Below are positions 36,748 to 40,611 of a DNA stretch of 64,000 bases, one piece after another (the first letter of the stretch is position 1; each line of letters opens with the position of its first letter). Both the position numbers and the translations under genes were made by a program. The notes under the pieces are model-generated. The model saw only the letters and a list, made by a program, of their open reading frames with translations. It was not told the DNA's origin and ran no database searches. Origin of the DNA: Halorussus rarus (GTDB lineage: Archaea > Halobacteriota > Halobacteria > Halobacteriales > Haladaptataceae); contig NZ_QPMJ01000001.1 in the NCBI RefSeq assembly GCF_003369835.1, positions 310,001 to 374,000 on the forward strand. Direction: 5' to 3'.

Positions 36748-38673
36748 TTACTTGAACCGGAACGTCTCGAGGTTCTTGGGCGCGAACGTCCGCATGTTGA
36801 AGTCGTGGTAGAGCGACGACGAGAGGTCCTGGACGCTCGACTCGTCGCCGTGGACGCACAGCACCTTCTCGGGCCGTGGGTTCATCGTCTTCACGAAGTT
36901 CATCAGGCCCTGGCGGTCGGCGTGGCCGGAGAAGCCGTCGACCGTCTCGACGTCGAGCTTGAGCGAGAGCTTCCCGTTGCGGCCGCGGCCGCCGCCGCGG
37001 TTCATCGGGATCTCGTCCCAGCCGTTCTGGATGCGCCGGCCCAGCGTCCCCTGGGCCTGGTAGCCGACGAACACCATCCGGCTGTCCGGGTCGGGGCCGA
37101 CGTGCTCGAGCCACGACATGATGGGGCCGCCGGTGACCATGCCGGAGGTCGAGAGGATGATGCACTGGTCGCCGTCGGCGACGTCGCGGCGCTCCTCCTC
37201 GCCGCCGTCGATGTGGTTGAACTGGTCGGCGAGGAACGGGTTCTCGTCCTCGTGGAAGATGCGGTCACGGAGGTCGTCCCGGAGGTACTCGGGGTAGGTC
37301 GTGTGGATGGCGGTCGCCTCCCAGATCATGCCGTCTAAGTGGACCGGCATCTCGGGAATGTCGCCGTTGCGCATCGCCTCCTCGATGACCAGCATCATCT
37401 CCTGGGACCGACCCACAGCGAACGCCGGGATGAGGACCTTCCCGCCCTTCTCGTAGGTCTCGTTGATGACCTTTCTGAGCTTGCGCTCGGAGTCCTCCTG
37501 GTCGGTCTGGTAGTCGTTGCGACCGCCGTAGGTCGACTCCAGGACGAGGGTCTCGACCCGCGGGAAGTCGTTGACCGCGCCGTTGAACAGCCGGGTGTCG
37601 TCGTAGTGGATGTCGCCGCTGAACGCGACGTTGTACAGGCCGTCGCCGATGTGGAAGTGCGACACCGCGGAGCCGAGGATGTGGCCCGCGTTGTGGAGGG
37701 TCAGCTTCACGTCGGGCGCGATGTCGGTGACGTCGCCGTACTCCAGCGGGATGGTGTGCTTGATGGCCTCCCGGACCATCTCGGACTCGTACGGCGGCGC
37801 GCGGCCCTCCTTGGCCGCGACGTCGAGGTAGTCGAGCTGGAGCAGGCCCATCAGGTCCCGGGTGGGCTCGGTGGTGTAGATGGGGCCGTCGTAGCCGTAC
37901 TTGAACAGCAGCGGGATGAGCGCCGAGTGGTCGAGGTGGGCGTGGGTCAGCACTACCGCGTCGATGGTGTTGGCGCCCGCGCCCAGCGCCTCCTCGACCT
38001 GGAGGTACGGCACCTCGTCCTCGGCGCCCGGCTTGTCGCCGCAGTCGATGAGGATGCGGGTCTCGGGCGTCGAGAGGATGAACGAGGCCCGGCCGACCTC
38101 CCGGCAGCAGCCGAGCGTGGTGATCCGGACGTACTCGTCGTCGGACATCTCCTCGCGGTGGATCTGGCGGCCCACCTTCTCGAGGATGTCCCGGCGCTCG
38201 TCGCGCTCCTGCTTGAGGAAGTTCCGGACGTTCGAGACCGTCGAGGACTCGATGGGCGGGGTCCGGACGACCTCGGGCGTCCAACCGACCTCCTGGGTAA
38301 TCTCCCGGAGGGTCGAGCCGTGCTTGCCGATGACCATCCCGGGCTTCTCGGCCTCGATGACGACCTCGCCCGTGTCGGCGTGGAAGTCGAGGTCGGTCAC
38401 GCCCGCCTCCTCCGGGATGACGTCGAGCACGTCCTCGCGGGCGTCCTCGGGTCGGGACAGCACGTCCGGGTCGGGCCGGACCGTGATGCGCTTGCGGAGC
38501 TGGCTCGCCAACTGCCGGATGAGGTCGCCGTTCCGGGCGAACTTCTTGGGGTCGCGCGTGTACACGACCAGTTCCGGGCCCTCGTACTTCACGTCCGACA
38601 CCGAGATGTCGCTCGGTAACTCGCTCGTAATCTCTGCTCGCAGGTCCTCGAGTTGCTGGTCTACTTTACTCAT
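36748..38673 (-). CDS. fttA: Transcription termination factor/RNase FttA (aCPSF1)
   Basis: Beta-CASP ribonuclease that cleaves nascent RNA and terminates archaeal transcription. The 641-residue protein has two N-terminal KH domains (about 1-135; the second with PGMVIGKHGS at 111-120), a metallo-beta-lactamase domain with the zinc motif THAHLDH (243-249), a beta-CASP insertion (about 395-540), and the C-terminal motifs FSGHAD and CVHGDES. All metal ligands are present. The ATG at 38673 gives the conserved MSKVDQQLEDLRAEI start. Its upstream leader may be long and structured. Confidence 0.96.
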   Translation of the reverse strand: MSKVDQQLEDLRAEITSELPSDISVSDVKYEGPELVVYTRDPKKFARNGDLIRQLASQLRKRITVRPDPDVLSRPEDAREDVLDVIPEEAGVTDLDFHADTGEVVIEAEKPGMVIGKHGSTLREITQEVGWTPEVVRTPPIESSTVSNVRNFLKQERDERRDILEKVGRQIHREEMSDDEYVRITTLGCCREVGRASFILSTPETRILIDCGDKPGAEDEVPYLQVEEALGAGANTIDAVVLTHAHLDHSALIPLLFKYGYDGPIYTTEPTRDLMGLLQLDYLDVAAKEGRAPPYESEMVREAIKHTIPLEYGDVTDIAPDVKLTLHNAGHILGSAVSHFHIGDGLYNVAFSGDIHYDDTRLFNGAVNDFPRVETLVLESTYGGRNDYQTDQEDSERKLRKVINETYEKGGKVLIPAFAVGRSQEMMLVIEEAMRNGDIPEMPVHLDGMIWEATAIHTTYPEYLRDDLRDRIFHEDENPFLADQFNHIDGGEEERRDVADGDQCIILSTSGMVTGGPIMSWLEHVGPDPDSRMVFVGYQAQGTLGRRIQNGWDEIPMNRGGGRGRNGKLSLKLDVETVDGFSGHADRQGLMNFVKTMNPRPEKVLCVHGDESSVQDLSSSLYHDFNMRTFAPKNLETFRFK

Positions 38674-39015: not shown

Positions 39016-39531
39016 ATGCGACTGACTCGCGACCGCGTCGCCGAGGAGTACGAGTGGGTCCGCGGTCGGGCCGACGCGGTGGTCCCCCTCATCAACGACG
39101 TCCGGGCGGACCTCGGCGACCTGTTCGAGACCGACGTCGACGAGGTGACCCCGGACGACTACCGCCGGGAGGTCGACGCCGTCTTCGCCGACGGCGACCG
39201 CGCGGTCAACGTCGCCGCGATGGTGGCCATCCTCCGGGACCTGGACGTCGAGGGCGACTACCCGGGGTTCGTGGTGGACGAACTCCTCGGCCGGGAGCTC
39301 GCCGGGACCATCGCCGGCGGGCAGCCCCTCCGCCTGCTCGGCGAGGCGACGTTCCACTACGCGGACGTGACGACCCACGGCGACCCCGAGGACCCCGCGG
39401 GCGCCGATGACCTCGACGCCGCCCTCGCGGCCGGGTTCCAGACGCGACTGCCGGGCTGGGACTGGACCGAGAGCGAGAGTCCGTTCGCGGTCGGAGAGGG
39501 GCTGGATTCATCCGTAGAGGAACACGAGTAG
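39016..39531 (+). CDS. Uncharacterised acidic haloarchaeal protein
   Basis: I do not recognise a named family. The 171-residue soluble protein is acidic, mixed alpha-beta, with no signal peptide or membrane helix. Its middle contains GYPGFVVDELLGRELAGTIAGGQPLRLLGEATFHYADVTTHGD in shorter conserved-looking blocks, and a C-terminal tail from about 150 that is polar. The codon use and third-position GC match neighbouring genes, supporting a real CDS. It ends next to the 191-bp inverted-repeat element. Confidence 0.7.
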   Translation: MRLTRDRVAEEYEWVRGRADAVVPLINDVRADLGDLFETDVDEVTPDDYRREVDAVFADGDRAVNVAAMVAILRDLDVEGDYPGFVVDELLGRELAGTIAGGQPLRLLGEATFHYADVTTHGDPEDPAGADDLDAALAAGFQTRLPGWDWTESESPFAVGEGLDSSVEEHE

Positions 39532-39837
39532 ACCATTAGCAGACGCTCGGTGACACTAACCACCGGCAAACGCTCCGTGACCCAAGGACGGTCTGGGTGG
39601 ACCGAAAGGGGCCGGCCGGTCGCGTACACTTTAGGCGTCTCAGCGACCCCTATCGGAGCCGGGCGTTGCGGAGAGGCTCCGATATGTCGCTGAGCGCCCG
39701 TCTCGTGAGCGTAGCGAACGAGACCTCGGAAGACGCAGCCCGCGCAGCGTAGCGAGCAGGAACGTCTTCCGGTGGCGACCGGCCGGGGGCTTTCTAAACC
39801 GAGTCCTTCCAGTCTTGTCAGCTGCTGTCGTTGGCTG
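39532..39837. other. Convergent intergenic region around structured element
   Basis: A 306-nt gap between convergent genes. Apart from the inverted-repeat element at 39604-39794, it contains an imperfect direct repeat, GCAGACGCTCGGTGAC (39539-39554) and GCAAACGCTCCGTGAC (39566-39581), and a short T-rich tail. No ORF is convincing. Confidence 0.5.
39604..39794. repeat. 191-bp element with terminal inverted repeats and nested hairpins
   Basis: Terminal 20-nt arms (39604-39623 and 39775-39794) match as inverted repeats at 17 of 20 positions: GAAAG, three mismatched bases, then a perfect CCGGCCGGTCGC. Inside, 39634-39660 pairs with 39675-39698 in a long stem of about 22 pairs with one bulge and a small internal loop. 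A second stem pairs 39700-39706 with 39718-39724, and a third pairs 39728-39735 with 39763-39770. There is no ORF and no clear target-site duplication. It may be a mobile miniature element, a bidirectional terminator or a structured RNA. Confidence 0.6.
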
Positions 39838-40611
39838 TCACTCCTCCGAATCGTCCGACACCTCGTCGCCCTCCCACCCCTCGACGTACACCCGTCCCTC
39901 GTCCACGCCCTGCTCGGACAGGTACTCCCGCGTGTCGACGACCATCTCTGGAACGCCGCAGACGTAGAAGTCCCGACTCCCGAAGTCGTCCAGGTAGTCG
40001 CCGAGGTGGTCCTGGACGTGGCCCTCCGGCCCCCGCCAGTCTTCGTCGGCCTCCGAGAGCACGTAGGCGACCTCCAGGTCGTCGTTGGCGGCAGCGAGCT
40101 GGTCGAGCGTCTCGCGGTAGATGACGTGCTCCTGGTCCTTCTCGCCGAAGAAGAAGTGGGCGTGGCCGCTGCCCTCCTCGACGTACTGCTTGACCATCGC
40201 CACCATCGGCGTGATGCCGGTCCCGGTCGAGACGAACGCGACGTCCCGGTCGAGATCCCGGAGGGAGAGGTTGCCGTCGAGCTCCTCGATTTCGACGGTG
40301 TCGCCGGGGTCGCGCTCGTGCATCCACGTCGACGCGACGCCGTCGGGGTAGCGCTTGATGGCGAGCGCGATGCGCTCGGTGCCGGGGAGTACCGTCGCCG
40401 TATAGGGCCGGACGACCTCGTCGTCCGAGTCCCCGCCCTCGCCCTGCTCCGCGTCGTCCGCGGCCGGGCTCTCGGCGCGGTCGAAGTGGACGTGGGTGTG
40501 CTGGCCGGGGTCGTACTCGAAGGTGTAGCCGTCGGACTCCAGCACGAACTGCTTGACCGTCGGGGTCATCTGGTGGACGGACGTGACCGTGACCTCGTGC
40601 GTGTCGGTCAT
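39838..40611 (-). CDS. FAD-dependent NAD(P)H oxidoreductase
   Basis: A 257-residue member of the ferredoxin-NADP reductase superfamily. The N-terminal FAD barrel includes VRPYTATVLPG (the RxYT/S FAD motif, about 68-78) with an acidic insertion (about 50-65), followed by the NAD-binding half with VAFVSTGTGITPMVAMV and a late VCGVPEMV segment. It lacks a fused iron-sulphur or haem domain, so it passes electrons to a separate partner not encoded nearby. The ATG at 40611 fits the fold. A second protein of similar type is encoded at 62850-63500. Confidence 0.88.
   Translation of the reverse strand: MTDTHEVTVTSVHQMTPTVKQFVLESDGYTFEYDPGQHTHVHFDRAESPAADDAEQGEGGDSDDEVVRPYTATVLPGTERIALAIKRYPDGVASTWMHERDPGDTVEIEELDGNLSLRDLDRDVAFVSTGTGITPMVAMVKQYVEEGSGHAHFFFGEKDQEHVIYRETLDQLAAANDDLEVAYVLSEADEDWRGPEGHVQDHLGDYLDDFGSRDFYVCGVPEMVVDTREYLSEQGVDEGRVYVEGWEGDEVSDDSEE

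Follow-up and report, generated by a model that had tools for sequence, protein, structure and literature searches.

Dispersed intergenic palindromes of high copy number are familiar from the enterobacteria as the REP/BIME and ERIC sequences, and double-hairpin elements were reportedly described from fungal mitochondria by Paquin et al. in 2000. The fungal mitochondrial elements are short GC-rich hairpin modules, mostly intergenic and potentially mobile, according to the available part of PMC10085805. In haloarchaea, the accessible portion of PMC3119063 describes SMR-A of Haloquadratum walsbyi, a small mobile repeat (SMR) of ~110 bp with prominent inverted terminal repeats, which occurs in up to 54 copies per genome, carries no transposase, makes no target duplication and inserts into palindromes of other elements. 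SMR copies of one type are commonly >95% identical, and their mobilisation is called enigmatic there. The same portion of PMC3119063 reports haloarchaeal PATEs, which carry neither a transposase gene nor terminal inverted repeats and share with IS200/IS605 ends the palindromes near the ends and the absence of target duplication.

The window (the whole stretch of 64,000 nucleotides analysed, from Halorussus rarus) contains one of about forty related copies in a dispersed haloarchaeal family. With a probability of roughly 60%, we read this element as a member of a family of mobile elements in haloarchaea that are non-coding, intergenic and multi-hairpin and carry no transposase gene. Its parts are listed below.

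39532 to 39603, plus strand: left context, two ~27-nt hairpin-like units in direct repeat and the leader GGTCTGGGTGGACC; within the stretch missing at empty sites, and different among copies
39604 to 39794, plus strand: core element, long form, from GAAAG to CTTTC; near-identical copies lose homology within ~10 nt of its ends
39604 to 39623, plus strand: left arm of the outer stem, one of the two terminal inverted repeats, containing a GGG/GGG internal loop
39634 to 39698, plus strand: hairpin 1, an irregular palindrome with a conserved CCC/T internal loop, found in short and long forms
39700 to 39774, plus strand: double-hairpin module A (hairpins 2 and 3), in long-form copies only, placed between the ACC and GCG of the short form by alignments of the two forms
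39775 to 39794, plus strand: right arm of the outer stem
39795 to 39837, plus strand: right tail after CTTTC, weak consensus [GT]-[AG]-[AG]-[AG]..TTCT; within the stretch missing at empty sites

The core of 191 bases is non-coding, and 39604-39794 delimit a real unit. The first-pass annotation had described 20-nt arms matching at 17 positions, stems nested between them and no ORF, and recomputation gives the same picture: the terminal arms are complementary at 17/20 positions (85%), the nested stems 39639-39647/39686-39694, 39651-39660/39675-39684 and 39727-39735/39763-39771 are all 100% complementary, the hairpin in the 39700s shows up in the computed folds, and no long ORF fits. The end points given there fall on GAAAG...CTTTC, the boundaries shared by the whole family. 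The fold energy is lower than that of all 200 dinucleotide shuffles on either strand (z = -6.1 for plus and -7.9 for minus). The flanking genes are convergent, at 39016-39531 on the plus strand and 39838-40611 on the minus strand; their products are a 171-aa protein that matches no Pfam family and an FAD/NAD-binding oxidoreductase. A nearby gene (36748-38673) encodes the archaeal termination factor FttA (aCPSF1) according to Pfam; we claim no link to the element. The window has no Rfam and no tRNA match, and a known RNA family was rejected since Rfam 15 gave 0 matches above the gathering threshold for the window and six related loci. We also noticed that positions 39532-39590 and the left flanks of many Halorussus copies contain tandem ~27-nt units of the CACCGG..CGGTG type, which are capable of forming small hairpins; the pattern of this unit occurs at 34 places in the H. 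rarus genome against 8 for the reversed pattern, and only some of them adjoin known copies.

REP/BIME and ERIC resemble the family as dispersed, high-copy intergenic palindromes; the H. rarus genome has no RAYT-like Y1 gene. As far as descriptions can be compared, the modules are like the fungal mitochondrial double-hairpin elements in being short, GC-rich and mostly intergenic, whereas those reside in organelle genomes and the modules seen here lie inside a larger conserved element of archaeal chromosomes. Palindromes near the ends and no target duplication found are common to our family and the PATEs or IS200/IS605 elements, from which it differs by its terminal inverted repeats, absent from PATEs in the available text of PMC3119063. 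Likened by description to SMR-A in that same text, the family shares inverted terminal repeats, prominent in the window, a length too short to code, multiple copies and the lack of a transposase; in contrast to SMR-A, it has conserved internal hairpins, nested modules and a spread over many genera. The >95% identity between SMR copies is not reached, with the long-form H. rarus copies 81-86% identical to the window copy and few pairs reaching 95%. Since this identity is lacking and HqIRS42/43/55 were compared by description and not by sequence, SMR membership is not claimed; by analogy, our best reading is that the Haloquadratum small mobile repeats would be the nearest in kind. No paper describing this family was found by title or abstract, nor in the available parts of PMC3119063, PMC2864571 and PMC10085805, most subscription papers lying beyond the search.

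Trained on 18 copies of the short form, the covariance model R1 scores the window copy at 78.5 bits and finds 43 matches in the H. rarus genome at E<=1e-3, or 52 at E<=0.1, some of which are weak mirror matches on the opposite strand; a DNA search of this genome returned 64 matching pieces. All 18 Halorussus genomes match in the DNA search at E<=1, with 7 to 80 pieces each, and five congeners give 26 to 102 covariance-model matches each at E<=1e-5, G003 having more than 100, against zero at E<=1e-6 in one Halorussus genome (G009). Further afield, matches at E<=1e-6 occur in 67 of 292 sampled Halobacteria genomes and 30 of 77 genera, all within the same order or closer, and in 11 of 246 genomes of a phylum sample, every one in the same order; the two samples overlap and were searched with stricter filters that lose weak matches. 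Among the matches listed, the left arm is seen in Halorussus, Haladaptatus, Haloarcula, Halomicroarcula and a Halobacteriales MAG. For most copies the divergence amounts to 15-25% of positions, with compensating changes. The tolerant alignment and covariance search of this and related genomes proposed in the first-pass annotation found the family, and the three things whose absence was to leave a chance palindrome (other copies, conservation in related species and compensatory changes) are all present; the genome copies and the covariation rule out that explanation. Two exact-pattern hits in bacteria (L091, L093) have no model match and are taken as chance hits. A virus-borne element was rejected as well, with no match in phages and the exact pattern absent from viral_contigs, and no autonomous copy was found among the related loci examined, which are short.

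The major stems are preserved by compensatory changes, as the alignments of the copies show. Across the 18 short-form copies, standard pairs fill 97.6% of pair cells and 16 of 40 pairs are changed on both sides; none of 500 shuffles, which preserve column make-up and not relatedness, reaches any of five measures, and sliding the structure along the alignment leaves 33-42% paired, a control that flatters the structure because the structure was derived from the same alignments. The outer stem is 98.7-98.9% paired in alignment A1, and 25 of 56 pairs are changed on both sides in the long-form alignment of 21 copies.

A double-stranded cruciform predicts equal numbers of G-U and A-C pairs, whereas RNA or ssDNA of the GAAAG...CTTTC strand predicts a bias. 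Among the best-scoring 79 of 94 model-aligned matches, there are 70 G-U against 20 A-C pairs, with 21 pairs leaning to G-U and 5 to A-C (P = 0.0025; bootstrap G-U fraction 0.67-0.88), although a G-U-tolerant model may slightly inflate the bias and the relatedness of the copies makes P a guide only. The counts are 81 against 33 for all 94 rows, weak opposite-strand mirror matches included, 11 against 5 for the 18 short copies alone, and 48 against 8 for the long-form set, of which 21 come from one invariant U-G pair, leaving 27 against 8 without it. Given this excess on one strand, that strand seems to be selected for folding singly, as RNA or ssDNA.

All 38 H. rarus copies with gene calls, made by a home-made codon model, lie between predicted genes: 16 are in tandem surroundings with the same orientation and 10 with the opposite one, 6 are between convergent and 5 between divergent genes, and 1 has a left gene only. 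The neighbours are ordinary (73 proteins at 37 loci, 110 Pfam families with at most 3 members each), an association with a gene family was rejected, and no transposase is among the 25 of the 110 Pfam families listed. A bidirectional terminator, as first suggested, does not suit these placements: the orientation to genes is mixed, whereas an intrinsic terminator would be placed 3' of genes; the right profile of 145 copies has no T tract, which would follow the hairpin of such a terminator; and relatives lack the element at this junction.

Of the 18 Halorussus genomes, 11 have the oxidoreductase neighbour at E<=1e-60, that of H. rarus included. In 5 of the 10 others (G003, G004, G007, G013, G014) the genes abut within a few bases and no element is present; G017 carries a short-form element, G006 and G011 have variants bearing extra hairpins, and G002 and G016 have a different ORF. 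The stretch missing at the empty sites includes the left 27-nt units and the right tail of ~43 nt. Among other fetched loci, 22 of 428 site comparisons have a short gap, and the cleanest empty sites of those inspected are L150/L128, where L128 has abutting operon genes, and L151/L087; L015/L134 and L194/L089 align poorly and were excluded from the clean set. Because filled and empty sites belong to different species, we can only infer the exact junctions and the direction of change.

The homology of near-identical copies at different sites ends, in most pairs, 5-10 nt left of GAAAG and 0-4 nt right of CTTTC, as for the H. rarus copies L004 and L005 (95.5% over 202 bp). Homogenisation of the core by gene conversion could also end homology at the core limits. 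The stretch missing at empty sites also takes in the left units and right tails, which show no homogenisation; the mobile unit may extend beyond the core, or the core may insert into repeats older than itself.

The family is modular, with stem-only, short and long forms; the short form lacks window positions ~39700-39774, and the window copy is a long form with the 75-nt double-hairpin insert. Among 201 distinct cores, 10 are <90 nt, 145 are 90-159 nt and 46 are at least 160 nt, the range running from stem-only (L211, L222) to >250 nt. Module A is present or absent between otherwise alike copies; besides its usual place in long forms, it interrupts the hairpin 1 loop in L007 and L008, and L220 has it outside the core. 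Another double hairpin, module B, has the linker TCGTCAT or its reverse; it occurs in either orientation (L215, L216, L218, L221, L224, L225) and is also found beyond the core in L315 and L316, enclosed by a further hairpin in L316. Tandem repeats of the right arm with its tail are seen in Halorussus amylolyticus and some other genomes; in L022, L150, L153 and L230-L234 the repeated piece is the right arm plus ~50 nt of tail, and the left arm is not repeated. A further repeat with GGCTGGGGAGG is often found immediately left of the element in several genera (L226-L234, L219, L316), and upstream of the L070 and L139 copies.

Dispersed copies, presence and absence differences among congeners, mixed orientation, stem compensation, the one-strand G-U bias and the modules are the properties found for this family. 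As the copies come and go between species and the folded shape is kept, it looks like a small hairpin-based mobile element, and the first-pass suggestion of a non-autonomous mobile element gains from the dispersed copies, the empty sites in relatives and the mixed orientation, with no mobilising enzyme found. We infer that members have moved in the family's recent history, by way of a single-stranded intermediate and with a helper in trans. The GAAAG...CTTTC strand, as ssDNA or RNA, would fold into the intermediate through which the element multiplies, a trans-acting protein would recognise this folded form, and the element would enter intergenic DNA leaving no lasting target duplication; the double-hairpin modules, probably mobile themselves, would enter its loops and junctions, giving the long form of the window. 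No host function would need to be assumed.

The Haloarcula copies are a separate case. All 18 that were taken from Haloarcula genomes lie in one conserved plasmid segment, e.g. in pNG500 of H. marismortui, adjoining a gene annotated as SOSS complex subunit B family, and are a matter of shared descent and not of independent insertion. This shared non-coding segment (L246-L263; NC_006393 88370-89154) contains a TATA-like box and the element next to the SOSS-B family gene, and a 2.5-kb plasmid of Natronobacterium sp. AS-7091 has a match to part of it. An RNA linked to tRNA or rRNA was considered for Haloarcula and rejected, the locus being a plasmid segment.

The copies could alternatively be functional structured RNAs, regulatory or trans-acting, multiplied by duplication with each copy under selection. 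Strong covariation, the conserved asymmetric internal loop and the G-U bias, which fits an expressed RNA equally well, agree with this, as does the position of the 18 Haloarcula copies downstream of a TATA-like box. However, no promoter-like signal appears in the left profile of 145 copies, 10 of the 38 H. rarus copies are antisense to both neighbours, orthologous sites lack copies, and copy numbers vary widely among congeners. Of the structured RNA proposed in the first-pass annotation, the fold and the one-strand bias are real, with ssDNA an equally good fit, and we regard such a function as the less probable account, unlikely for the family as a whole.

Movement as ssDNA by a Y1 (HUH) transposase, in the manner of REP or IS200/IS605 elements, would suit the irregular hairpins, the one-strand folding bias and the finding of no target duplication, and PATEs of such a kind are known in haloarchaea (available part of PMC3119063). 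Against it, PF01797 has no match (E<=0.001) in 8 of the 18 Halorussus genomes, including the copy-rich G000, G003 and G004, so that this route is unlikely as a general answer. A lagging-strand preference would also give long runs of one orientation along replicons, whereas no clustering is seen (z = 0.19, 0.53, 1.43, -1.57 and -0.22; for G012, G003 and G017 based on the matches listed), and a replication-strand bias was rejected. We hold this reading to be very improbable.

If the element were a classical MITE and a DDE transposase recognising the 20-nt inverted repeats moved it in trans, the terminal repeats, size, intergenic position and empty sites would be explained; a MITE would not need the internal hairpins that covary here. 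The flanks, where the first-pass annotation had advised looking for target duplications, contain none that is consistent among 179 copies (Haloarcula left out), the best combination of k and offset giving 11/179 against 2.5 expected for a 3-mer, with ends not fixed to the nucleotide. Shared flank 7-mers number 98 against 85.5 (sd 6.1) and 10-mers 5 against 1.9 (sd 1.3), a small excess across 7- to 10-mers. A MITE seems a shade less credible again. Palindromes kept perfect by replication template switching, with folding unselected, are the least plausible account: L029, with hairpin 1 inverted, and L261, with its internal loop turned into perfect pairing, look like such events, but the patterns used detect only 2 among 201 cores, internal loops stay imperfect in most copies, and no G-U versus A-C asymmetry is predicted.

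If the family is indeed mobile through a folded single strand, it might, as a tentative and on balance doubtful extension, represent a new class of archaeal mobile element, copied via one-strand folded RNA or ssDNA with no transposase of a known kind and serving as a scaffold for other mobile hairpin modules, so that intergenic regions would partly be nested hairpin parasites. The family is old, widespread and of high copy number, and its strand-specific structural conservation offers a way to get at the form that moves, which would be a folded single strand. The approximate unit limits, the empty sites and the modules make a search for the helper gene and a mobility assay practical. The family would account for a share of the structured intergenic DNA that may otherwise be mistaken for regulatory RNA.
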